Virus record (IMG/VR): IMGVR_UViG_3300036781_000145
Location: 1-36,780 of that record
Reading direction: 5' to 3' (one strand)
From: a virus
Length of the DNA stretch: 36,780 nt
Position numbers and translations under genes: made by a program
Part shown: positions 185-36,780 of the stretch, in pieces
Position numbering within the stretch: position 1 is the first letter of the stretch
How the letters are laid out: each line of letters opens with the position of its first letter
The notes under the pieces: generated by a model
Seen by the model: the letters and a program-made list of their open reading frames with translations, nothing else
Database searches by the model: none
Told to the model about the DNA's origin: nothing

Positions 185-1051
185 GTGGGGGCAGAACGGC
201 CGTTACGCCTGGTGCCAGATTGGGCAGGGATGGACACCCGCATCCATCCCCCGGCAGCGTGGCTGAGGGAACTTGACGACTATTACGCATGGCTTCGCAG
301 CGCACACACGTCTCCAGGCACGATCAAGCTGCACTCCTATCACCTCCGCCGATTCGCGACCCTGCACCCGCACCCGTACGCGGTGAAACGCGACGACCTG
401 ATCGACTACCTCGGATCTGGCGACTGGTCCGCCGGCTACCAGCGATCCATCCGCACGACCCTGAAAGCCTTCTACGGATGGGCGCGCGAAGAGAAACGGA
501 TCAGGAAGAACCCGACGAAGAAGCTCCATAAGATCGCCGTGCCCCCGGGTGTGCCGCGGCCTGCGTCCGAGGAAGATGTCGCCGCAGGGCTGGAGATTGC
601 TGACGAGCGCGTGCGACTGATGATCCGGCTTGCAGCACAAGCTGGACTCCGGTGCTGCGAAATCGCTGTCGTCCACACTGACGACCTCATCCGCGACCTC
701 GTGGGATGGTCGCTTGCCGCACACGGCAAAGGAGACAAGACTCGCATCGTCCCACTGAACCCTGGACTTGCCGCCGACCTACTCGGCATGCCAGAAGGTT
801 ACGTGTTCGTCGGCCAAATCGATGGGCATCTGTCAGCCGCCTACGTCTCGAAGCTGATCTCCCGAGCCCTCCCGGAAGGTGTGACAGCTCACCCCATGCG
901 GCATCGATTCGCGTCGGTGGCGTATGAAGGGACTGGAGGCGATATCCGTGCGGTTCAGGAACTGCTCGGCCACGCCTCGGTAGCCACGACCCAGATATAT
1001 ACCAAAGTCCCAGATGGAGCGAAACGTCGCGGAGTTCTCGCCGCGGCCTAG
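185..1051 (+). CDS. int: Tyrosine recombinase / phage integrase
   Basis: This 288-aa site-specific recombinase would integrate and, with an excisionase, excise the phage. An N-terminal SAM-like core-binding domain covers about residues 25-115, with the catalytic domain at about 125-288. Visible catalytic residues are R156 (in AGLRCCE), K182 in the beta-hairpin, H236 and R239 (in HPMRHRF), H263 (in LLGH) and Y272 (in TQIYTKV), so the set is complete. The GTG at 185 is the longest start; ATG at 230 is an alternative that loses no domain. It is the first of two plus-strand genes and lies beside the tRNA-like att fragment, against the direction of all other phage genes. Confidence 0.95.
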   Translation: MGAERPLRLVPDWAGMDTRIHPPAAWLRELDDYYAWLRSAHTSPGTIKLHSYHLRRFATLHPHPYAVKRDDLIDYLGSGDWSAGYQRSIRTTLKAFYGWAREEKRIRKNPTKKLHKIAVPPGVPRPASEEDVAAGLEIADERVRLMIRLAAQAGLRCCEIAVVHTDDLIRDLVGWSLAAHGKGDKTRIVPLNPGLAADLLGMPEGYVFVGQIDGHLSAAYVSKLISRALPEGVTAHPMRHRFASVAYEGTGGDIRAVQELLGHASVATTQIYTKVPDGAKRRGVLAAA

Positions 1052-22752: not shown

Positions 22753-23514
22753 TCATGTCCGGGAGATCGCCGAGGTGGCCGCACGTTCTAGGCGGCGATC
22801 GGTGATCGCGAAGCGTTTGATCCAGGATTCGACGATCCCTGGCTGATCACGGACAGCCAGCCATTCCCGTACCAATTCAGGATGCTCGGCGACGTGCCTG
22901 CAGACGAACTCTCGCTGCAGCGTCTGAAGCCAGCCCTCTGCTTGCCGCCATCGTGGCTGTGCATGCTCGGCCTTCACCGCGGCGAGGTGGTCGTATTCGG
23001 TGACACCGCCGAGGGCTGAGAACAGGTACATGAAGGACTCGTCCTCGCCGCCCCATGAGGTGAAGTTCTCGTCCATCCCGCCGGCACGCCACCAGGATGA
23101 TGGGCGGACGATCCACGCAGCGCCGGGGTCGTTGAATCTGGCGTGCGGCCACTGATTCAGGTTGCAGTCAGCGAGCAGCTGCAATCCGTCGAGCGGGACG
23201 TTCACGCCACGGAGGAACGGCTTGCCCAGGTAGAAGCCCTGCTCGCCCGCCGCGGCAACCTTGCTGGTGATCGCGGATGGCCACAGCAGAGTGTCCGCGT
23301 CGACCAGGACCACGACGTCGAAGCCGTCCGCCATCTGCACGAGCTCGTTGCGGGTCCTTGCCCGAAGGAATGGCTCACCGATCGCGGTGGCTGAGTGGAC
23401 GAGCTGAGGGATGTCGGGGAAGTGGTGAGCGTAGAAGCCGCGGACGATCTCGAATGCTTCAGCTCGAACTGGCTCGTTCGGGCAGTAGGGGAACGCGAGG
23501 CACCACGATGTCAT
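22753..23514 (-). CDS. GT-A glycosyltransferase, Glyco_transf_7C-like C-terminus
   Basis: 253 aa. It carries a VLVDADTLLW donor-binding DxD motif at about residues 70-79 and a GGMDENFTSWGGEDESF segment at about 140-157, the D-E-x-F...W-G-G-E-D-E pattern of galactosyltransferase-type (GT7-C) domains. It lacks a signal peptide, so it acts in the cytoplasm. ATG 23514 overlaps the epimerase gene by 56 nt. With the neighbouring epimerase and second transferase it forms a sugar-modification cassette. Whether the acceptor is a virion protein, DNA or host glycan is unknown. Confidence 0.75.
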   Translation of the reverse strand: MTSWCLAFPYCPNEPVRAEAFEIVRGFYAHHFPDIPQLVHSATAIGEPFLRARTRNELVQMADGFDVVVLVDADTLLWPSAITSKVAAAGEQGFYLGKPFLRGVNVPLDGLQLLADCNLNQWPHARFNDPGAAWIVRPSSWWRAGGMDENFTSWGGEDESFMYLFSALGGVTEYDHLAAVKAEHAQPRWRQAEGWLQTLQREFVCRHVAEHPELVREWLAVRDQPGIVESWIKRFAITDRRLERAATSAISRT

Positions 23515-24559
23515 CGGTCAGCCATTCCGGATTCGCCAGCATCCATTCCACCGTGTCGCGCACATCCTCGGCGAGCGATGTTGGCGGTTCCCATCCGAGG
23601 GCACGCAGCTTCGAGTCATCAAGGGCGAACACCTTCTCGTGACCCGGCCGGGCGTGGTCGGCCTGCAGCGGCACCCACTTCAGCGGCAGACCGGAAACGT
23701 CCGAGATCATGTGCGCGAGCGCCACGTTCCCAATCTGGGTGCCGGCCACGTTGAAGCGGGCAGGGAACGGGTCGCCGTTGAAAGGTCGCGCTTCGGGGAT
23801 CGCCGCCAGGATCGCCGAGGCGAGCACCCGAGGGTGCATGTACTGCCGGAGGGACTCTTCGCCCGATCCTGACTGCGGTTCGTACCAGTCCACGACCAGA
23901 GGCACTGGTTCGCTGCCCAGCAGCTTCCGCAGCACGGTCGGGATCAGCTTCGACGGCGCCTGCGTCGGCCCGATCAGGTTCATCGAGTTCAGGATCACCA
24001 GCGGCAGCCCGTGCGACCGCCACGAGGCGATCAGGTACGACTCCTGCGCTGCCTTCGACGCTGAGTAGTGCGTCGAAGGCCTGATCGGCTCCCACTCCTG
24101 ATGGGGTTCATCTGGTGCCGGGCCGTAGACCTCCTCGGTGGAGATCTGAACGAACGCCTCGAGGTCACGCAGTCGCGCCCACTCGGCCAGGTTCGCGATC
24201 GCCGCCAGGTTCGGCAGGAACACCCTGCGGGGGTCGGCGATGCTGCCAGCGATGTCGGTCGACGAAGCTGCCGAGATCACCACATCCACGTGCCCAATCA
24301 GCGACTCCGGGATCGGATTCAGGAGGTCATGCTGAACGATCGTGACCCGGGAGCTGTCATGCCCGGCCAGGATCAGCGGAAGCCGCCGCGGGGTGGACCG
24401 CACCATGCAGATCACATGAGCGGTGGTGACGGTCAGCAGGTGGTCGAGGATGTGGGCGCCGACGAACCCGTCAGCACCGGTGAGCAGGAATGTCAGGGCA
24501 CGTGCAGGACTCGCGCTTTCGGCGCGTCGATCTCCCAGTGACATTTCGCCCCAATCCAT
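23459..24559 (-). CDS. NAD(P)-dependent NDP-sugar epimerase/dehydratase
   Basis: 366 aa, extended short-chain dehydrogenase fold. The Rossmann GADGFVGAHILDHL motif is at about residues 28-41, STEEVYG near 143 and the catalytic YSASK near 165. C-terminal LSM-type substrate domain continues to about 340. This family converts nucleotide sugars (epimerase or dehydratase). The exact substrate cannot be read. The first ATG (24559) overlaps the previous gene by 67 nt; ATG 24544 has a better ribosome site and leaves the fold intact. It sits between two glycosyltransferases. Confidence 0.8.
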   Translation of the reverse strand: MDWGEMSLGDRRAESASPARALTFLLTGADGFVGAHILDHLLTVTTAHVICMVRSTPRRLPLILAGHDSSRVTIVQHDLLNPIPESLIGHVDVVISAASSTDIAGSIADPRRVFLPNLAAIANLAEWARLRDLEAFVQISTEEVYGPAPDEPHQEWEPIRPSTHYSASKAAQESYLIASWRSHGLPLVILNSMNLIGPTQAPSKLIPTVLRKLLGSEPVPLVVDWYEPQSGSGEESLRQYMHPRVLASAILAAIPEARPFNGDPFPARFNVAGTQIGNVALAHMISDVSGLPLKWVPLQADHARPGHEKVFALDDSKLRALGWEPPTSLAEDVRDTVEWMLANPEWLTDDIVVPRVPLLPERASSS

Positions 24560-25266
24560 TCTTCCGAGCCGACCACGTTGAATTCGAGATATGCGAGCCA
24601 GTTGAACAGCGCCATGTCGGTGTAGTCGCCCTGGACGTGTTCCGACAGGCGATGCGTGGCCATATGCTCGGCCAGGCGGAGCATCGTCTTCCGGTCAGCG
24701 GCTACCACGCCAGCGTTCAACGCAACCCGGTTTGGGTTGCGGCGAATCCACTTCTGAATCGTCGGCGATGAGTGGTAGCGGGTGTCGTTGATGAATCCGG
24801 ACACGCCCATGGGCTGTCCCCGCCATCGACGCAACCCAGGCAGCATTGTCGGCTCGGTACAGGTGTAGAGCGTTCCGGGCTGAATGTAGTCCCAGGGGTC
24901 CCTGACCACGATCACGTCGCGACCGTCAGCGACGTACACGAGATCGAGGTCGGTGCGTTCGAGCAGGACGTCACGAATGACATCCCAACGCTCGAAGAAG
25001 AAGTTGCCGGCCAATGACGGTGTCTCGCGCAAGGTGACCGTGGACCGCAGTTCGCGGGGGATGTCAGTTCGACGGAGAGAGTCGGTGCAGACGATCAGTT
25101 CCCCATGCGGCTTCACCGACCGGGCCAGGCGGCCGAGTTGTGGCTTCTGCGGCATCTGCTCGGTGGGTTGCTCCCACACTCGCGCATCAGCGGGGTAGTC
25201 CGAGACAGGGTGACGATCCATCTTCATCCCGCCAGTCATGTAGACGGTGATGAACGCGTTCGCCAT
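24493..25266 (-). CDS. Nucleotide-sugar glycosyltransferase-like protein
   Basis: 257 aa from ATG 25266, with GAGAGG upstream. It has LDLVYVADGRDVIVV at about residues 100-115, giving a D-G-R-D metal-binding loop, and ALNAGVVAADRKTM at about 188-201, typical of GT-A/GT8-like transferases. It is soluble and lacks a TM anchor. The ORF upstream of the ATG reads through the tRNA and is not coding. It is the first protein gene after the tRNA and probably leads the glycosylation cassette. Confidence 0.7.
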   Translation of the reverse strand: MANAFITVYMTGGMKMDRHPVSDYPADARVWEQPTEQMPQKPQLGRLARSVKPHGELIVCTDSLRRTDIPRELRSTVTLRETPSLAGNFFFERWDVIRDVLLERTDLDLVYVADGRDVIVVRDPWDYIQPGTLYTCTEPTMLPGLRRWRGQPMGVSGFINDTRYHSSPTIQKWIRRNPNRVALNAGVVAADRKTMLRLAEHMATHRLSEHVQGDYTDMALFNWLAYLEFNVVGSEEWIGAKCHWEIDAPKARVLHVP

Positions 25267-25320
25267 TCGAGCCTCTCGACATCGTTGCTGCTGCGAGCGC
25301 CGCTCGAGCCTGAAAAGAGT

Positions 25321-25392
25321 TGCGGAGGTCGGACTTGAACCGACGACCTCCGGGTTATGAGCCCGGCGGGCTACCAACTGCCCTACCCCGCA
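25321..25392 (-). tRNA. tRNA-Met (CAT), initiator-like anticodon stem
   Basis: 72 nt, with all arms formed: acceptor TGCGGGG/CTCCGCA (one G-T), D stem GGGC/GCCC, anticodon arm CCGGG-CTCATAA-CCCGG, and T arm GTCGG-TTCAAGT-CCGAC. The anticodon is CAT. Three consecutive G-C pairs flank the anticodon loop, as in bacterial initiator tRNAs. Unlike the classical 1:72 mismatch, T1-A72 can pair weakly, and the D stem has G11-C24. CCA is not encoded. It could serve elongation, initiation or both. Confidence 0.95.
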
Positions 25393-29439: not shown

Positions 29440-29906
29440 GCTGCGTTCCCTTCCGCCCAGAGGGCGATCTCGTCGTCGCTGAGGACGTATCTGCAGTCGG
29501 CGCACAGCGACCCGCGTCCGACGCGGACCTTGCGCAAGAGGCCGCAGCGGACGCACGGCGAAGTCGGTGTCGGCGAGTGGGCGCCGTGGATACGCCGCCC
29601 AGGTGCGATGTCCGTGAGGCCGAGCGCGAGCCAGTGGCGGCGCCAGGCGAGTTGCTCGTCGGGCGACCGGTGCGACAGCAACCAGTCGGCACGGTCAGCG
29701 AATGACAAGATCCCGGTCAACTCGAGCTCAGCGTGCAGACGCTCCTGGTCGCCTTGGAGACCGGCCAGCACGACACGTGTTCGGGCGAGATCGATCTGAT
29801 GACATTCGCACCAGCAGTTCGTCGCGCGGTCGTTCTGGACGTCCCACGCATCGCCGCGGCAGGCGCGATGCTTCCCGTCCCGGCAGTCCGGGTTCAGCCA
29901 CGTCAC
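29436..29906 (-). CDS. Cys-rich zinc protein, two metal sites (156 aa)
   Basis: N-terminal C-x7-C and CWCECH form one probable site (about residues 8-36, with GKHRACRGDAWD). C-terminal CVRCGLL and CADCRYVL form a second zinc ribbon at about 120-140. A helical middle joins them (AGLQGDQERLHAELEL). GTG 29906 overlaps the replication-gene stop by 4 nt. The N-terminal motif recurs in actinophage early proteins. Function unknown; nucleic acid binding is plausible. Confidence 0.65.
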   Translation of the reverse strand: MTWLNPDCRDGKHRACRGDAWDVQNDRATNCWCECHQIDLARTRVVLAGLQGDQERLHAELELTGILSFADRADWLLSHRSPDEQLAWRRHWLALGLTDIAPGRRIHGAHSPTPTSPCVRCGLLRKVRVGRGSLCADCRYVLSDDEIALWAEGNAA

Positions 29907-30757
29907 GAGTTCACCGCCGGGGCATTCTCGGCGACGCGCTTCCACTCGTCGCGGATCACATCCGGCGACTGGCGCGCCGCCTGCTCGAGATATCGCTCCG
30001 GGTAACGGACGTGCCGAGTCGCGAGGTCGAGAACAGCGCCGGCGACGTCGACCGCGAACGCGAGCCGCATCGGTGAGTCGATGGCTCCGACGATCGGGGC
30101 GAACGCGTTCACCACCCGGTTCAGGCGCTTGATGCCGAGCTTGCCTGCTGACGTGACAAGGAACTCCTCATCGGTTTGATCGGCTCGCGCGGGTATCTCG
30201 TGAGATTCCTCTACGGGGGTCTCTACGGTCTGTCTGTCTTTATCCGGGATCGGGGACGGGGACGGGGGATTCCGAAGCGACTCCGAAGCGACTCCCTTAG
30301 TGACTCGCTTACCTGTCGCTTCACTGATCACACAGAGTGAGCAGGTAGCGACCGAAATACCCCCCTTGACGTGCCAACGGTTGTGGTTGGCCAGAAGGGC
30401 ACCCGCGCGCTTTGCGTCGTTCCCAGCGGCAACGGTGGCCGAATCAGGGTTATATACGAGGAAGTCATGGATCACGATTGATCCCTCGGGCGGCTGGATG
30501 CACCTGGCGCAGTCGTGACCGGCCAAATGCCACCGATCCACGGCCACGAGAGCGTCGATCAGTTCCGGCATCGCCATCAGTTCGTCGAGCTCGGTCATGT
30601 CGATGACGCCGTCGGTGTGATGCCGCACCGAGTAGTTCATCGCCAGATGGTCGAGTCCGACTGCCGCGAGTCGAGTCGGAACCTCGATCGGCTTGCGACT
30701 GATCCTGGTCACCTTCCGTGACACCCCGTACTGGTCGTCGGTTCGTTGCCACACCAT
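29903..30757 (-). CDS. Replication initiator-like helix-turn-helix protein
   Basis: 284 aa. N-terminal W-x-R-x-D-D start with K-x-x-R-I-S-R, then RLAAVGLDHLAMNYS and HTDGVIDM, a pattern used by actinophage replication initiators (winged helix). GSIVIHDFLVYNP at about 90-102 completes the domain. A Pro/Ser-rich linker (about 145-190) precedes a helical C-terminal part (about 195-280), which may recruit helicase. ATG 30757 shares one base with the stop upstream. DNA repeats lie inside the linker, as in lambda O. Confidence 0.7.
   Translation of the reverse strand: MVWQRTDDQYGVSRKVTRISRKPIEVPTRLAAVGLDHLAMNYSVRHHTDGVIDMTELDELMAMPELIDALVAVDRWHLAGHDCARCIQPPEGSIVIHDFLVYNPDSATVAAGNDAKRAGALLANHNRWHVKGGISVATCSLCVISEATGKRVTKGVASESLRNPPSPSPIPDKDRQTVETPVEESHEIPARADQTDEEFLVTSAGKLGIKRLNRVVNAFAPIVGAIDSPMRLAFAVDVAGAVLDLATRHVRYPERYLEQAARQSPDVIRDEWKRVAENAPAVNS
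30271..30346. repeat. Iteron-like repeats and dyad in the replication gene linker
   Basis: TCCGAAGCGAC occurs twice in tandem (30271-30281, 30282-30292), with an inverted GTCGCTTC at 30315-30322. A dyad with arms ACCTG/CAGGT and TCACT/AGTGA covers 30311-30346. GGGGAC repeats precede it. This may be a replication origin within the gene for its own initiator. Confidence 0.4.
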
Positions 30758-30966
30758 CAGGACACCTCGCAGGAGCAGGGCTTCACGAGGAAGCAGACGT
30801 CACACACGACCTCGCCGGGCTTCAGTTCGAAGTCGTAGTCGGGTGGTGCCTCAGGGCAGACCTCGTGGACGTATCGTCCGTTCGGCTTCTGCTCGATCAC
30901 GTCGCCGATTGCGATCGCTTCTCGGCAGTCGTCGCACTGGCCCTCGTACTTCGCCATGAACGACAT
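30757..30966 (-). CDS. Small zinc-ribbon protein (69 aa)
   Basis: ATG 30966 shares one base with the upstream stop. CDDCREAIAIGD at about residue 11 with a HEVC partner near 36 makes one site, and CDVCFLVKPCSC at about 55-66 another. Single-domain zinc ribbon; such proteins often bind nucleic acid or protein. Followed directly by the replication gene, also with a one-base overlap. Confidence 0.65.
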   Translation of the reverse strand: MSFMAKYEGQCDDCREAIAIGDVIEQKPNGRYVHEVCPEAPPDYDFELKPGEVVCDVCFLVKPCSCEVS

Positions 30967-31403
30967 CAGCGCACCACCTGCCCATAGAAGGTGTTGCGCC
31001 ATTCGACGACATCGGCGGGCACCATCAGCTCACGCTGGAAGTCGTTCGTCAGCCGGTAGTCGCGGCCGTCGGGATAGCGGACCGGAACGTACTCGGGATC
31101 GATGTCGATGCGGATGCGCGGCAGCGACCACCCGAAGAGGCGAGCCGCCATCGCGAAGTCAGCATCGGCCTCCGCGAGAGTGTTGTGCACCCAGCAGAAC
31201 GTCCGCAGCAGTTCGGGCCGGTCGAACTGCGCCGAACCGCCCATGCCCTTCCCGATGGCGTGCTGGATGGTGAGTCCACCCGCGCACGGGAACTTGGCGG
31301 CCCATGCCGATCCGGCGACGAGGCACCGGTAGTCGTCACGGAGGTAGATGGCATCGCGGACCCTCTCCACTTGCGAACGCGATCGCTTCGCGAGGGGGCT
31401 CAC
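30966..31403 (-). CDS. HNH-type nuclease-like protein
   Basis: 145 aa. About residues 18-75 have YLRDDYRCLVAG, GGLTIQHAIGKGMGG and FCWVHNTLAEADA, giving the H-N-H arrangement (TIQH, WVHN). Structural Cys ligands are partial. C-terminal region (about 90-140) is a separate strand/helix part. Start GTG 31403 overlaps the XF1762-like gene by 4 nt. It lies in the DNA-metabolism block. May be a nuclease for recombination or a homing-type remnant. Confidence 0.65.
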   Translation of the reverse strand: MSPLAKRSRSQVERVRDAIYLRDDYRCLVAGSAWAAKFPCAGGLTIQHAIGKGMGGSAQFDRPELLRTFCWVHNTLAEADADFAMAARLFGWSLPRIRIDIDPEYVPVRYPDGRDYRLTNDFQRELMVPADVVEWRNTFYGQVVR

Positions 31404-31855
31404 GAGTCACGCTCCCAGAGAGTGCGGGCGACGCCGCCGGTTCCGCGGTCGCGTCGGGGGCGGGAGGGCATGTCCCATCCGCCGCGGGCTGGTCGTTCGC
31501 CGAGGACCCGGAAGCCTGAGGCGCGGAGTGAGGCGCCGGTCTCACCTTCCTGGGTGTAGGTAATCAGGCGTTCGAATCCGAGTGCTCGGGTTGCGCGCCA
31601 GGCTGCTCCGTAGAGGGCGCTGTTGGCGTTGCGAGTGCCGTCGGTTGCGGTGCGCAGCACTTCGAGCGTCCAGGGGCGTTCGGCGGCGATCACGCGTGAG
31701 ATCGGCCGGCCGACGATCGCGACGCCGACGAGGATCTGATCGGTGGCGACGCCGAGGGAGAACTTGTGGCCGCGTGGTGCACCGTGGTGACGATGGTGCG
31801 CTTCGACGAAGGCCTGCGCCTCTCTCAGCGACACCGGCACGATCCGCAGGTTCAT
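31400..31855 (-). CDS. XF1762-like GNAT-fold protein
   Basis: 151 aa. HHRHHGAPRGHKFSLGVA at about 20-37, EVLRTATDGTRNANSALYG at about 65-83 and YTQEGETGASLRASGF at about 99-114 match the XF1762 family, which has a GNAT acetyltransferase-like fold. ATG 31855 overlaps the methyltransferase gene by 4 nt. Reaction unknown. Position between HNH and methyltransferases hints at DNA or nucleotide modification but this is inference. Confidence 0.7.
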   Translation of the reverse strand: MNLRIVPVSLREAQAFVEAHHRHHGAPRGHKFSLGVATDQILVGVAIVGRPISRVIAAERPWTLEVLRTATDGTRNANSALYGAAWRATRALGFERLITYTQEGETGASLRASGFRVLGERPARGGWDMPSRPRRDRGTGGVARTLWERDS

Positions 31856-32757
31856 GCGGGGTCCGGCAAGGTCGGGTGCGCGAGCTGCCGCTCGAGCGCC
31901 TGCAGATTGTCGACGGCCGTGCGGTAGTACGACGGCTTCAACTCGATCGCGAACCCACGCCGGCCAAGCCGAACCGCTGTGTACGGCTCCGACCCGATCC
32001 CCCCGAATGGCGAGAACACAGTCTCGCCCGGCTGGGAGTACAACCGCACCACGCGTTCGATGAACTCCAACTGCAATGGGGCGATGTGGCGCTCGTCAGC
32101 GTCGTCCTTCGCGACCCGCACGTTCAGGGTGTTGCCCTGCTTGATGTCCGTCCACACCGGTGACGCCCATTTGATCCAGTCCTCCTGCGTCACTTCGTTG
32201 TCACGAGTCGGCAGGGGCACCTCCGCCTCGCCCGGCTTCTTGAACAGCAGCAGGTAGTCAGCGAGACCCGGGCGCACCTCGAGGCGGTTCCGCTTCAAGG
32301 TGACGAACAACAACGTGGAAGCCTTCGTGCGGATCGCCTGTTCCTGAGGGTCTTTCCACACGGTGGTCTCGCCCCAGAAGATCCAGCCGGCGTCCTCGTA
32401 CTCACGGATCACCTGACCGCGAAAGTCGGTCAGCCCGACGTAGCCGTGCATCACTTTCTGCAGGGTGATCTGCTGCACATGTACTGCGGCGATCCGCCCG
32501 GGCTTCGTGACGCGCAGCTGCTGGTCGATGATGAACCGGTAGTGCTTGAAGAACTCGGCCCGATCCGCGCTGTTGCTCAGGTCGCGCGGGCTCGGCGAGT
32601 AGTTGTAGAGCTGCGCGAACGGAGGCGAGCACACGCTCAGGTCGATCGAGCAGTCGGGGATCTCGGCCATCCGCTCGCACGAGTCGCCGAGCCACATCTC
32701 CCACGCATCCCCGCGAGTCTCCTCGGTCACGTACGCATCCGTCGGGGTCTGCATCAT
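31852..32757 (-). CDS. Site-specific DNA methyltransferase (N4-cytosine/N6-adenine)
   Basis: 301 aa. Catalytic motif IV SPPF at residues 44-47 and SAM-binding FSPFGGIGSE at about 248-257; order IV before I gives the beta class. YYRTAVDNL closes the fold. Target base not decidable. ATG 32757 overlaps the helicase stop as ATGA; ATG 32754 is alternative. No partner restriction enzyme is adjacent, so anti-restriction protection of phage DNA is likely. Confidence 0.85.
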   Translation of the reverse strand: MMQTPTDAYVTEETRGDAWEMWLGDSCERMAEIPDCSIDLSVCSPPFAQLYNYSPSPRDLSNSADRAEFFKHYRFIIDQQLRVTKPGRIAAVHVQQITLQKVMHGYVGLTDFRGQVIREYEDAGWIFWGETTVWKDPQEQAIRTKASTLLFVTLKRNRLEVRPGLADYLLLFKKPGEAEVPLPTRDNEVTQEDWIKWASPVWTDIKQGNTLNVRVAKDDADERHIAPLQLEFIERVVRLYSQPGETVFSPFGGIGSEPYTAVRLGRRGFAIELKPSYYRTAVDNLQALERQLAHPTLPDPA

Positions 32758-34058
32758 GCAGCCTTCCAATAGGCAAGCTGCCGCATCCCAGCGATCAGCT
32801 CATCGGTCATCGAGCGGTGGTCACGCTCCTTGCGGCGCACGTTCTCGGGGATCTGCGCCTCCACCTCGGACACGACAATGTGCGCCATGACCTCGCGGGT
32901 CTGCCCGTACCGCCAGCAGCGGCGGATCGCCTGGTAGTACCCCTCGTAGCTGTCCGACAGGCCCACGAACGCCATCCGGGCACAGTGCTGCCAGTTGAGG
33001 CCCATCGCGGCGATCGACGGCTTCGTGATCAGCGTCCGGATCTCACCGTCAGCGAAGGCGAGCAGCAGCTCGGCCTTCTCCTCAGGTGCCAGCGACCCGT
33101 GCACGTTGACGGCACCAGGCAGGGCCCGCGCGAGGGAGTCTGCCTCGTCGTTCAGTCCACACCACAGCAGCCACGGCTCATCAGGCTCAGAGGTCACCAG
33201 CCCGGCGGCACGCTCCACCCGCGCACTGAGGGTCTCGCGCCGGATTTTCGCTCGACCAGAAACTCCGCCCAGATCGAACGCGAACAACTGATCAGCCGGC
33301 GCCTCGATGGCCGCGTCGACAACCTGGTCGACGATCGTCAACGGAGGCAGGTCGTAACCCTCATCCGAGAACCCCAGATCGGATGGTCGGCGTAGCGCGG
33401 TCGCCCACCCGGCCATCCACCGGTACATGGGCCCGCGCGCATGACCCTTCACCCGATACCCGACAGCGTCATGAACGAAGTAGGTCGCGAGCATCTCGCG
33501 CCTGGTCGCGACGCCGAGGAACTCTGCATGGTTCGCGAGTTCGACCACGTCGTTGGGTGACGGGGTCGCGGTGCAGTCCAGGCGCCGCGGCGTGGGGCGG
33601 AACTCCGAGATCATCCGATCGCGGGTCTTGCTCGTCACGTCCTTCAAGATCGACGCCTCATCGAGCGCCACGGCGTGGAGCGTGGTCGCGTCGAATCGGT
33701 CGGTCATCTCGTAGTTCGTGATCGACAACCCGTCCCAGTCGCCGTCCTCACGTCGGTACGTGACGTCGACGCCGAGCTTGGCGGCCTCACGGATCGTCTG
33801 CTGACACACGGCCAGCGGCGCGACGATCAGGCCGCGGCCACCGTCGGGCACAGAGAGGCGCGCCCACTCGACCTGCATGAAGGTCTTGCCCAGGCCCGTG
33901 TCAGCCCAGATCGCCTCCCGCTCACCACCGACGGCCTTTGCGACGATCCGCTTCTGCCAGTCGTGCAGGATCGGGTTAACGGATCCGGTATCGATCGCCT
34001 CGCCGCCGAGGTGAGTGCGGGCCAGCTTCTCAGCCAGGAAGTCGTCGTAGGTGGTCAC
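32754..34058 (-). CDS. SF2 DEAD/DEAH-type helicase
   Basis: 434 aa. Walker A ADTGLGKT (52-59), DEAS (133-136), TATP (163-166) and a C-terminal AIRRCWRYGQ motif VI are all present, so it is an intact ATP-dependent superfamily 2 helicase/translocase. N-terminal LHDWQ is a Q-like motif. GTG 34058 overlaps the C5-methyltransferase stop by 4 nt; the much longer ORF running to 35612 is noise. Position between two methyltransferases suggests DNA processing. Confidence 0.9.
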   Translation of the reverse strand: MTTYDDFLAEKLARTHLGGEAIDTGSVNPILHDWQKRIVAKAVGGEREAIWADTGLGKTFMQVEWARLSVPDGGRGLIVAPLAVCQQTIREAAKLGVDVTYRREDGDWDGLSITNYEMTDRFDATTLHAVALDEASILKDVTSKTRDRMISEFRPTPRRLDCTATPSPNDVVELANHAEFLGVATRREMLATYFVHDAVGYRVKGHARGPMYRWMAGWATALRRPSDLGFSDEGYDLPPLTIVDQVVDAAIEAPADQLFAFDLGGVSGRAKIRRETLSARVERAAGLVTSEPDEPWLLWCGLNDEADSLARALPGAVNVHGSLAPEEKAELLLAFADGEIRTLITKPSIAAMGLNWQHCARMAFVGLSDSYEGYYQAIRRCWRYGQTREVMAHIVVSEVEAQIPENVRRKERDHRSMTDELIAGMRQLAYWKAA

Positions 34059-36031
34059 GCGGCGCGCTCCGATCGTGCGACCTGGCCGCTGAGCGCGACG
34101 ACGACCTGGCGGCCGATCCAGTGAGCGACATTCGACGCAACGGCGTTGCCGAAGCCTCGGGTTCGAGCACCCTTGTTCCCCTTCACGGCGTAGCCGTCGG
34201 GGAACCTCTGAGCACGGCCATGCTCGAGCGGGCCGAGAGGACGGAACCGGGAGTTGAGAATCGCGTCCTGCAGCTCGGCGTCGGGGATCTCGATCAGCGG
34301 GGGACGCCGAGCGCCGCGGGCGGGCGGGACGACGAGGGCGTGGTGCTCGCGGGTGGTGACGGTGCCGAGGGGGCGTTCGATGCTGCGTGCTGTGCTCTGG
34401 CCGTAGTACTCGGTGAGGTACGCGCCCTCGGGGACGACGAGGTTGTGGTTGGCGCCGGTGGCAGCGGTGATCGGGTGGGTGGGTTCGAGCGGTGATGTGC
34501 TGAGGTGCTCGTCGTTGCCGCGTGAGCCGAAGGAGCGGGTGAGGTAGGCGTCGGCGGGGATCGTGAGGCCGTGGTGGTTGCCGCCAGCGGTGACGGCGCC
34601 CAGGGGTTCGGCGGATCCGCGAGCGGTGCTGGTGCCTCGCTGCTCCACGACGAAGGGAGGCACGACGAGCTGGTGGTGCCCGCGGCCGTTCGCGACGACC
34701 GTGCCGAGAGGGGTGTCGTCGGTTGCCTTCACGCGGCGTGCGTCGCCGCCCTTGTGGTCGTAGCCGGCGACGATCATCGGCGGAACGACGAGGCCGTCGC
34801 CGATCTTCGTCTGCGCGGTCGGGAGCGGCTGCTCGGAAGGAAGGTAGTCGCGGCCGTGGTCGTCCTTGCCGTGGCGCATGTTCGTGACGAACGGCGGGAC
34901 GGCGAGTGCATCCTGACCCGTTGCGACGCGGGACTGCAGCGGGGTCTGTTCGGGGTCGGCGACGCGGTAGTAGTTGCCGCCCTTCCCGGATGCCGAGTCG
35001 AAGGTGTTGCCGGCGGTCGCAGCGACGACGGGACGACCGAACATCCGGTAGCCGATGCCGACGCGGCGCAGGGTGGCCGGCGCGAGGTGGTGCCATCCCA
35101 GCGACTGGGTGCGGGCCTTGTCGGAGAAGAACTCCTTCAGCGGGCGATCGCCGATCCGGGTGCCGAGGTCTGACCAGTCGATCGCGGCGGCAGCGGGCAG
35201 CACGAAGGGTTCGACGACGTGGGACGCGTGCTGGCCGGCGGCGCACACGTACAGGTATTGCGGGCCATACTTCCCCACACGGTGCTTGCGATCCGTGCGC
35301 TTCCAGGACTGCCGCGACTCGACGACCGCCTCGCACTGCGAGCACCACGCCAGCGGGCGAGGCTCGATGATCGGAAACGGGATCGACTTCTTGTAGAAGA
35401 CAAAGTAGATCCGGTCGCGCCACTGGGGAGCGCGCGGGTTCAACTCGTCGCCGACGTGCGCGGCCGACACGCAGATGATCTGACGGCTGTAGCCGAGGTT
35501 CTCCATCGCCATCAGCCAGGTGTCGAACAGCGGCCATGTGGTCACCTCGACGACGTTCTCGACCACGACGACCTTGAAGGCCTTCGCCTCGGCTGCCCGG
35601 ATGACGTCCCACATAGTCGCCCGCGAGCGCTCACCGGCTGCGGAGGGTACGTATTCGTCTGGGTAGAGGGCGTCGAGCTCGGCGCGCACCCGCTTGCGTC
35701 CACCGGCAGGCGAGTGCCAGGTGCATTCCGGGCTCAGCCAGGCGACGTCGGCGGACGGCACGCGGCGCATGTCGTATCCCGAGATGTCGCCGAGGAAGTG
35801 GTCGGCGAGGCGGAACGCGTTGGCGTGGTTCTCGATCGCGAGGTCCCAGTGGTTGGCCGCCCAGACGAGCTGCAGACCGGCCTCGGTGAAACCGATTGAG
35901 GATCCGCCGAAGCCGCAGAAGAAGTCGGTGAAGGTGATCCCGCTCGGCGGGTACGGGGCGGCCCAAGACTGCTCGAGCAGCCACATCTCGTAGGCGGAGA
36001 CCGGCGGTTCCGCGATCGCGACGTTGGTCAT
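34055..36031 (-). CDS. C5-cytosine DNA methyltransferase with internal repeats
   Basis: 658 aa. Motif I TFTDFFCGFGGSSIGF (33-48), catalytic Cys103 in LSPEC (usual PC changed to PEC), motif VI VVVVENV (154-160), motif VIII RDRIYFVF (205-212) and a C-terminal GNAVASNV motif X. CSQC (230-233) and later C/H suggest a zinc site. About 350-590 holds repeated PLGTV...VVPP units in the target-recognition region. ATG 36031 overlaps RusA by 4 nt. Could form 5-methylcytosine to evade restriction. Confidence 0.85.
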   Translation of the reverse strand: MTNVAIAEPPVSAYEMWLLEQSWAAPYPPSGITFTDFFCGFGGSSIGFTEAGLQLVWAANHWDLAIENHANAFRLADHFLGDISGYDMRRVPSADVAWLSPECTWHSPAGGRKRVRAELDALYPDEYVPSAAGERSRATMWDVIRAAEAKAFKVVVVENVVEVTTWPLFDTWLMAMENLGYSRQIICVSAAHVGDELNPRAPQWRDRIYFVFYKKSIPFPIIEPRPLAWCSQCEAVVESRQSWKRTDRKHRVGKYGPQYLYVCAAGQHASHVVEPFVLPAAAAIDWSDLGTRIGDRPLKEFFSDKARTQSLGWHHLAPATLRRVGIGYRMFGRPVVAATAGNTFDSASGKGGNYYRVADPEQTPLQSRVATGQDALAVPPFVTNMRHGKDDHGRDYLPSEQPLPTAQTKIGDGLVVPPMIVAGYDHKGGDARRVKATDDTPLGTVVANGRGHHQLVVPPFVVEQRGTSTARGSAEPLGAVTAGGNHHGLTIPADAYLTRSFGSRGNDEHLSTSPLEPTHPITAATGANHNLVVPEGAYLTEYYGQSTARSIERPLGTVTTREHHALVVPPARGARRPPLIEIPDAELQDAILNSRFRPLGPLEHGRAQRFPDGYAVKGNKGARTRGFGNAVASNVAHWIGRQVVVALSGQVARSERAA

Positions 36032-36438
36032 GCGGCGAGCGCTCCGAGTCTTGTGATTCGGAGGCGGATGGCTGCGGTGTCGCCGTGGATGATGATCGGC
36101 ATGTGCTTGACCATCAGGTCGGGCGTGTCGTCGGTGGTGATGCCGGCGTCGACGAGGCCGTCGCAGATTGCTTTCAGGGTGGGGACGAGGTTGTCGGAGT
36201 CGCGGCGGCGGTGGTCGGTGACTGTCCAGGTGAGGGTGACTTCGCAGCGTCCGAGGTTGGGGATGTGGCGGGCTAGCCAGGATGTGGCTCGCCGGGTGTT
36301 TCTTGTGATTTCGGCCCGGCGGAGGTGGTGGAGTCGTTGGTTCGCGGTGAGCGGTGGTCGGGTCCAGGGGAAGTCGATGTCGTAGACGTCAGGGCCGGGC
36401 CCGTCAGTCTGCACCTGTTCTGGTCGAATGTCGCTCAC
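36028..36438 (-). CDS. RusA-like Holliday junction resolvase
   Basis: 136 aa. The RusA signature RRDSDNLVPTLKAICDGL (about 78-95) and GITTDDTPD give the acidic residues D80, D82 and D103/D104 that bind metal. It resolves Holliday junctions in recombination or packaging. ATG 36438. The 40-nt gap upstream shows nothing notable. Usual length for the family. Confidence 0.85.
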   Translation of the reverse strand: MSDIRPEQVQTDGPGPDVYDIDFPWTRPPLTANQRLHHLRRAEITRNTRRATSWLARHIPNLGRCEVTLTWTVTDHRRRDSDNLVPTLKAICDGLVDAGITTDDTPDLMVKHMPIIIHGDTAAIRLRITRLGALAA

Positions 36439-36478: not shown

Positions 36479-36780
36479 TCACGCCGTCACGACCTTCCCG
36501 TCGCGCAGCGTGTACCAGGTGTCGGCCTTGATCTTCTTGCCGTCGACGATCACCGCGGCGACGTTGATGATTTTCCAGTCGGCGTCGCGCTCGGTGAGGA
36601 ACAGGGCATTGCCGACCCCACCCCGTGCACGGCTGTCCTTCCCAGAGGCGGTGGCCGCACCGGAGTACCCAGAGGCGGTGGCCGCACCGGAGCGCCCAGA
36701 GGCGGTGGCCGCACCGGAGTACCCAGAGGCGGTGGCCGCACCGGAGTACCCAGAGGCGGTGGCCGCACCGTAGTCCCCAG
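36479..36780 (-). CDS. Repeat protein with DUF7666-like C-terminus, cut by window edge
   Basis: No start in window. The minus frame open from the edge to 36479 encodes nine-residue GYSGAATAS repeats (five-plus copies), then KDSRARGGVGNALFLTE and a C-terminal IKADTWYTLRDGKVVTA. Such repeats followed by this end are common in phage/prophage proteins (DUF7666-type), possibly a beta-solenoid. The other two minus frames and the plus frame are shadows. Function unknown. Confidence 0.7.
   Translation of the reverse strand, partial: GDYGAATASGYSGAATASGYSGAATASGRSGAATASGYSGAATASGKDSRARGGVGNALFLTERDADWKIINVAAVIVDGKKIKADTWYTLRDGKVVTA
36641..36775. repeat. 27-bp tandem repeat, five copies plus a partial
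   Basis: Five 27-bp units start at 36641, 36668, 36695, 36722 and 36749, with only a few base differences, and a sixth begins at 36776. The array continues beyond the window. It encodes the nine-residue repeats of the overlapping gene and has no spacer, so it is not a CRISPR. Confidence 0.95.

Follow-up and report, generated by a model that had tools for sequence, protein, structure and literature searches.

Our analysis indicates that the DNA-modification block described here most probably consists of three independent modification modules, stacked so as to provide layered protection from host restriction; we estimate the probability of this reading at about 0.7. The block lies at positions 30966-36031 of the window, which is the whole analysed stretch of 36,780 nt of IMG/VR record IMGVR_UViG_3300036781_000145. 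Within the block, an SNF2-family ATPase and an N-methyltransferase (N-MTase) form the only conserved unit. Phage Mom enzymes and methylase-helicase dyads have been described before; what is new in the window is the way in which such known parts are combined.

Layout of the block and its flanks

The five genes of the block are all present on the minus strand, in the order C5-cytosine MTase, SNF2 ATPase, N-MTase, Mom-family XF1762 protein and HNH gene. A first-pass annotation had described them as DNA-modification genes that include two different methyltransferases, and the family matches agree with this (PF00145 for the C5 MTase and PF01555 for the N-MTase). The series of five genes joined by 4-nt overlaps was also found as described, with ATGA and GTGA junctions. 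However, these overlaps extend past the block, to the RusA-like/C5 MTase junction at 36028-36031 and to the replication initiator and following genes at 29903 and 29436, and they occur phage-wide in about 16 of the 49 adjacent minus-strand gene pairs (15 with a gene caller that mis-starts the HNH gene). When the junction with the RusA-like gene is included, all five junctions of the block have such an overlap, against 11 of 44 elsewhere in the phage (post hoc Fisher p 0.002). Thus, the block is tightly packed, but it is not unusual in kind.

Upstream, the C5 MTase gene is flanked by a gene for a RusA-like Holliday-junction resolvase (36028-36438, minus strand; phrog_34, E 2.9e-19), with which it shares a 4-nt overlap and which we place outside the modification set. 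Downstream, a TGATG stop/start overlap connects the HNH gene with that of a small cysteine-rich protein with no assigned function (30757-30966, minus strand; phrog_1581, E 9e-11), followed by the gene for a replication initiation protein (29903-30757, minus strand; phrog_2447, E 1.6e-16). The block is located between RusA-like and replication-initiation genes, in the replication region of the phage, a temperate actinophage. A scan for promoters and terminators gave no signal above chance, and PADLOC yielded no more than generic matches to MTases and weak ones to helicases.

The three modules and their predicted activities

The SNF2-family ATPase (32754-34058, minus strand; about 433-434 aa; phrog_62, E 5e-57) contains a Walker A motif DTGLGKT, a DEAS box and a motif VI with the sequence QAIRRCWRYGQ. 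It had been annotated as an SF2 helicase; the gene and its phrog_62 match stand, but the fold of a fused relative argues for an SNF2-family ATPase, which probably moves along duplex DNA instead of unwinding it as a helicase would. In the predicted structure of this relative, the ATPase part matches the INO80 and ISW1 ATPases (Z 33) and the MTase part is of the TTHA0409 type (Z 26.9). The two known domains cover nearly all of the 723-813 aa of the fused relatives.

The N-MTase (31852-32757, minus strand; 301 aa) is a beta-class DNA methyltransferase, with matches to PF01555 (E 1.1e-13), TTHA0409 (2zie; E 3e-18) and M.PvuII (E 1e-5). It has been reported that most N4-cytosine MTases carry an SPPY motif, whereas adenine MTases carry DPPY (PMC8885841), and we took the beta motif order with an SPP-aromatic motif IV as indicative of N4-cytosine methylation (PMC8885841, PMC2890505). 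Inspection of the N-MTase shows that motif IV, SPPF, comes first and is followed by motif I, FGGIGS; the SPPF motif is kept in 75 of 80 relatives. Judging from this four-residue motif and from the homologues, the methyl mark of the module is probably placed on cytosine N4 rather than on adenine.

The ATPase and the N-MTase, which in hundreds of phages have been given no more specific names than "helicase" and "methylase", travel as one module. The ATPase is present in 306 phage records, and its viral relatives group into 27 clusters when a 60% identity level is applied, with fusions in 10 of these. Among 80 viral ATPase loci, the MTase gene is adjacent in 48, fused in 25, and within a few genes or split in five, so that the two are coupled by fusion or neighbourhood in 78; the remaining two loci stop at a contig edge. 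A search of viral contigs with the N-MTase alone returned no match, as the peptide patterns used were probably too specific.

The XF1762 protein (31400-31855, minus strand; 151 aa; NF045478, E 5e-57) had been annotated as XF1762-like and compared with Mom on the basis of a GNAT fold. The homology with Mom holds, and several lines of evidence provide good support for the more specific view that the protein is a true member of the Mom family. Firstly, it scores 32.4 bits against PF25680 (Mom), above the cut-off of 27.1, and matches phrog_1384 with an E value of 8.5e-39. Secondly, phage Mu Mom (8bv8, the inactive mutant S124A) is the best PDB match of its predicted structure (pLDDT 90), with a Foldseek E value of 1e-9, a Z score of 15.7 and an rmsd of 3.2 over 149 residues. 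This entry ranked first in both Foldseek and VIA-align, with a small Z lead over other GNATs (15.7 versus 15.1). Mu Mom was recovered by fold, whereas searching the PDB sequences with the Mom profile yielded no true match. Thirdly, residues S79, R68, H21, E65 and N76 correspond to S124, R111, H58, E108 and N121 of Mu Mom in three alignments. The equivalence of S79 and S124, which the title of PDB entry 8bv8 identifies as an inactivating site, was obtained with hhalign and with three MAFFT modes, and 40 of 41 relatives keep the serine. The XF1762 family, which is poorly characterised, thus appears firmly tied to phage Mu Mom, including a residue linked to activity, which makes this enzyme of about 150 aa, present in many phages, directly testable for the predicted modification of adenine.

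The C5-cytosine MTase (34055-36031, minus strand; 658 aa) matches PF00145 (E 1.5e-23), phrog_116 (E 1.3e-55) and M.HhaI (E 2.6e-9). All its motifs were found: I (DFFCGFGG), IV (SPECTWHS, with the catalytic cysteine), VI (ENV), VIII (QWRDRIY) and X (GNAV). Since motif IV reads SPEC, a glutamate and not a proline precedes the catalytic cysteine. The target-recognition region contains about six repeats of ~40 aa. Relatives occur in 201 phage records, in some of which the SNF2/N-MTase pair is present too, and the closest viral contig (L165) encodes a protein with 68% identity.

Assortment of the modules and alternative readings

The first-pass annotation suggested a single unit of five genes for anti-restriction or hypermodification and proposed to look for the set in other phages. 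The full set was absent from every relative examined. Mom was found near the SNF2/N-MTase pair at none of the 80 viral ATPase loci, and Mom relatives almost never carry the pair. Because the modules assort independently, and the HNH gene does not regularly adjoin Mom, a single five-gene unit is unsupported. The XF1762 gene proved to be unlinked in relatives, which is one of the outcomes that the first-pass annotation had named as speaking against its reading. A C5 MTase gene immediately upstream of Mom is frequent only inside one 80%-identity Mom cluster, and in a close relative (L080) a C5 MTase, a different N-MTase and Mom are linked by short overlaps. Furthermore, the C5 MTase and the SNF2/MTase pair are found together in several phage groups (L165, the Dante type and Arthrobacter Zucker). 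The arrangement in L080 and these co-occurrences suggest that some cooperation is possible.

In the reading that we prefer, the orphan C5 MTase would generate 5-methylcytosine. The SNF2 ATPase and the beta-class MTase, which many other phages encode as a fusion, would act as one machine, in which the ATPase travels on duplex DNA and brings along the MTase, with methylation probably occurring at cytosine N4, and the Mom-family enzyme, with its acyltransferase fold, is predicted to put an acyl-derived group on adenine N6. As each module would mark another position, together they would make the DNA of the phage resistant to host restriction enzymes of several kinds. Protection from host restriction is the most likely purpose of these genes, although orphan phage MTases may instead serve gene or replication control.

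It is in this respect that an alternative has to be considered, namely that the SNF2/N-MTase pair functions in replication, recombination or gene control, and that the RusA, HNH and replication genes constitute its true context. The pair adjoins RusA-like, ssDNA-binding/annealing, primase or replication genes in the window, L182, Guppsters and prophiFSQJ01-1. However, the best-known examples of SNF2-methylase coupling come from anti-restriction (DarB) and restriction-modification systems (PMC5512222), and the slot of the pair can also hold a C5 MTase cassette. Thus, in the mycobacteriophages Dante and Guppsters, DNA that is 90-95% identical runs up to a common slot with different cassettes: one phage has a C5 MTase together with a 1180-aa SNF2/MTase fusion, the other an SNF2/MTase pair. 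We consider such a role, in place of anti-restriction, unlikely.

The independent assortment of the modules would also fit a chance neighbourhood of cargo genes under no common selection. Linkage between Mom and MTases could not be upheld as a general rule, since the difference in MTase frequency between positions near Mom (9 of 150) and distant ones (3 of 122) is not significant (Fisher p 0.24). Yet three different modification modules lie within 5 kb, and the C5 and SNF2/MTase modules recur together in other phages, which makes mere chance rather improbable.

The adjoining HNH gene (30966-31403, minus strand; 145 aa) encodes a weak HNH endonuclease-like protein (phrog_740, E 7e-10). It could indicate phage-borne restriction-modification, in which Mom or an MTase shields the phage while the HNH protein cuts unmodified host or rival DNA. 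Mom is also followed by an HNH gene in M. abscessus prophages, and the two adjoin directly in L009, L017, L073 and L077; moreover, Mom domains of jumbo phages are fused to REase-fold nucleases (PMC7824862), and "endonuclease-like" proteins with a Mom-like fold are among the viral fold matches. The phrog_740 HNH protein, however, accounts for only 3 of 87 immediate Mom-neighbour proteins and is present at any distance in 12 of 42 Mom records, so that Mom-HNH is not supported as a conserved pair. In addition, HNH genes are widespread in actinophages, and that of the window has neither Pfam nor PADLOC matches. Restriction-modification therefore seems improbable. We regard as very improbable its extension to a phage-borne multi-base modification-restriction system, in which co-translated enzymes would apply a coordinated coat of SNF2-driven N4-cytosine, C5 and Mom-type adenine marks during replication and the HNH protein would attack unmodified host or rival DNA. 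Finally, a single hypermodification pathway, with the enzymes acting in series on one base, is hardly credible: although the five genes are tightly packed, the order C5 MTase, N-MTase, Mom recurs in L080 and sugar-related genes are present elsewhere in the phage, the enzymes are predicted to modify different positions (C5 of cytosine for the C5 MTase, N4 of cytosine or N6 of adenine for the N-MTase, and N6 of adenine for Mom), the modules are unlinked in relatives, Pfam scans of unknown genes nearby revealed no oxygenase, and a search for a TET/JBP oxygenase (PF12851) gave no match in the record, nor in any control genome.

Comparison with known systems

Phage Mom enzymes have been published (PMC7824862). 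The XF1762 protein shares with phage Mu Mom (8bv8; PF25680) the GNAT fold, the alignable H, E, R, N and S residues, including the serine mutated in the crystal, and the location on a phage. However, Mu Mom has 241 aa, against 151 aa in the XF1762 family, and the identity is about 18%. Furthermore, Mu Mom is encoded with Com at the right end of a Mu-like genome, whereas the XF1762 gene of the window lies beside replication genes, and no Com-like regulator was identified.

The orphan C5 MTases of Gordonia, Mycobacterium and Arthrobacter phages (phrog_116) have the core motifs and long target region in common with that of the window, which is only about 30-36% identical to its named phage relatives over most of its length. 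Its variant SPEC motif IV is also present in L165, L080 and L166.

SNF2-methylase dyads and DarB anti-restriction have likewise been described (PMC5512222). As in the P1 DarB dyad, an SNF2-type ATPase of a phage is coupled to a DNA MTase, either fused or neighbouring. In virion-borne DarB, however, a gamma-class NPP(Y/F) adenine MTase precedes the helicase and an LPD36 domain is present (PMC5512222), whereas in the window the ATPase precedes an MTase of the beta class with an SPPF motif. Type I, III and ISP restriction-modification enzymes also combine an ATP-driven SF2 motor with an MTase, but the pair of the window has no visible nuclease domain and its motor is SNF2-like by fold. The pair also has counterparts in the "DNA helicase / DNA methylase" pairs of Mycobacterium cluster F phages, Gordonia phage GMA1 and Arthrobacter phage Zucker, which are orthologous (up to about 61% identity) and have the same order and a short overlap, but which adjoin a Mom gene in none of the phages examined.

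Genomic setting and packing of the block

The window is the whole record of 36,780 bases and lacks end repeats. It carries an integrase gene (185-1051, plus strand) and genes for terminase, portal and head protease, and its replication genes lie on the minus strand; judged by this gene content, it is a temperate tailed phage. The nearest protein relatives, found in Microbacterium, Gordonia, Mycobacterium and Arthrobacter phages and in actinobacterial genomes, suggest an actinobacterial host. Between the terminase and the replication genes lie genes for a glycosyltransferase, a nucleotide-sugar epimerase and a second glycosyltransferase (22753-25377); a tRNA-Met (cat) gene (25319-25392, minus strand) overlaps the longest-reading-frame start of a glycosyltransferase gene. 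A second HNH gene (PF01844; 22332-22784) immediately precedes the terminase, which we take to be the usual position of a packaging HNH. At the extreme end of the record (36641-36780), there are 5.2 copies of a 27-bp tandem repeat, which could be repetitive coding sequence or an artefact of assembly at the contig end.

All five genes of the block that the first-pass annotation had placed at 30966-36031 are present there. The order on the minus strand is RusA-like resolvase, C5 methyltransferase (MTase), SNF2-type ATPase, N-MTase, the GNAT-fold protein XF1762, HNH-like protein, a small cysteine-rich protein and the replication initiator, and every junction from RusA through HNH is a 4-nt overlap. 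These overlaps, which that annotation had noted, are real and, in a post hoc comparison, denser in the block plus RusA (5/5) than elsewhere in the phage (11/44). However, since about 16 of the 49 neighbouring minus-strand gene pairs share such an overlap, close packing is not in itself enough to mark out a functional unit. The small protein after HNH (30757-30966) has CxxC and HxxC pairs and is zinc-ribbon-like; Mu Mom is regulated by Com, a zinc-finger protein. A 16-nt inverted repeat without mismatches has one arm where the RusA-like gene begins (36423-36438) and the other at the C5 MTase gene's 3' end (34121-34136).

Three types of modification enzyme

The parallel drawn between the GNAT-fold protein and phage Mu Mom was borne out, and we conclude that XF1762 is a Mom-family member. 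Its score against the Pfam Mom profile lies above the cut-off, and its PHROG match is the family annotated 'Mom-like DNA modification protein'. Moreover, a confident structure model built from 36 relatives (mean pLDDT 90) has phage Mu Mom (8bv8) as its best match PDB-wide by both Foldseek and VIA-align (Z 15.7, rmsd 3.2, 149 residues, 18% identity), with other GNAT enzymes close behind (Z 15.1). According to its PDB title, 8bv8 is the inactive mutant S124A, and Mu S124 aligns with XF1762 S79 in hhalign and three MAFFT modes. In the MAFFT alignments, Mu H58, E108, R111 and N121 correspond to H21, E65, R68 and N76. Within the family, H, E and R are conserved in 41/41 members, and N and S in 40/41. 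Mom enzymes put an acyl-derived group onto adenine N6 (PMC7824862), and by analogy XF1762 would do the same.

The SNF2 ATPase and the N-MTase form one module. Of the 80 viral contigs that carry an ATPase relative, 48 have the MTase as the very next gene and 25 have it fused; in the remaining seven it is a few genes away or split (5) or lies past the contig end (2). Clustering at 60% identity reduces these loci to 27 groups, and fusions occur in 10 of them. The ATPase occurs in at least 306 phage records, including phages of Mycobacterium, Flavobacterium, Arthrobacter, Pseudomonas and Synechococcus; in Pseudomonas phi297, ATPase and MTase are encoded by one 876-aa gene. In the model of a fused relative, an SNF2 ATPase similar to INO80 and ISW1 (Z about 33) comes first and an MTase similar to TTHA0409 (Z 26.9) second. 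At the relative loci L120, L121, L149 and L151, one or more small genes, possibly mobile endonuclease genes, separate the two. The N-MTase has its motif IV, SPPF, ahead of motif I, an arrangement present in 75 of the 80 relatives and one that marks the enzyme as beta-class. SPPY-type motifs are a mark of N4-cytosine enzymes (PMC8885841, PMC2890505), and with the SPPF motif IV this makes N4-methylcytosine the best prediction for its product.

The C5 MTase (34055-36031) has the expected motifs, with a SPEC variant of motif IV. Where the target-recognition domain is expected (residues about 340-570), it contains about six tandem repeats of ~40 residues each, with the pattern P-L-G-x-V-T ... H-H-x-L-V-V-P-P, which could constitute a multi-specificity array. 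Relatives occur in 201 phage records, the closest being at the fetched loci L165 (68%) and L080 (59%).

Linkage between the modules

The suggestion that the five genes form one unit was not supported: across the Mom and ATPase loci, the modules are largely unlinked. Mom relatives were collected from viral contigs, phage records and bacterial genomes; many of the Mom-bearing contigs are fragments, gene prediction in the fetched loci was simple, and related contigs are counted separately unless clustering is stated. The window-type ATPase is absent from the fetched flanks of all other Mom loci, and Mom from all 80 ATPase loci. Among 47 whole Mom-bearing records, only one (G013) has the SNF2/MTase pair, ~9 kb from Mom. 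DNA MTases are slightly, not significantly, commoner near Mom (9/150) than farther off (3/122), and a C5 gene immediately upstream of Mom is mostly confined to one cluster of close relatives. The nearest likeness to the block is L080, an actinomycete MAG contig, in which C5, an N-MTase unlike that of the window and a frameshifted Mom gene are joined end to end; the frameshift, which appears to break the reading frame (L080:5847-6303), reflects either decay or an assembly error.

C5 and the SNF2/MTase pair do occur together, in L165, Dante-type mycobacteriophages and Arthrobacter Zucker. Dante and Guppsters are 90-95% identical in DNA up to an HNH gene, past which Dante has C5 and an 1180-aa SNF2/MTase fusion, whereas Guppsters has an SNF2/MTase gene pair; thus, the slot after the HNH gene takes different modification cassettes. 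The Dante fusion is annotated as an anaerobic ribonucleoside reductase, probably a misannotation.

Proposed layered protection and comparison with DarB

Our best reading is that the block contains three independent base-modification modules providing layered protection against host restriction. The C5 MTase, the SNF2/MTase pair and the Mom-family enzyme would each separately modify bases of the phage DNA, and the stacked modifications would shield it in layers. It could alternatively be argued that Mom and HNH constitute a phage-borne modification-restriction pair, for which Mom-nuclease fusions of jumbo phages are a precedent (PMC7824862), but this linkage is not conserved among relatives, HNH lying immediately beside Mom in few cases. 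A serial hypermodification route through the block enzymes is unlikely. A search for TET/JBP found no match, although this negative had no positive control behind it.

As regards the three-module reading, it has already been noted that the coupling of SNF2 ATPases with MTases is widespread in phages beyond the polyvalent proteins, and P1 DarB provides an anti-restriction precedent for the SNF2/MTase dyad (PMC5512222). The window pair shares this dyad with DarB, but its order is reversed and its MTase belongs to a different class. On these sequence features we place the pair outside DarB membership, although by analogy it may work like DarB.
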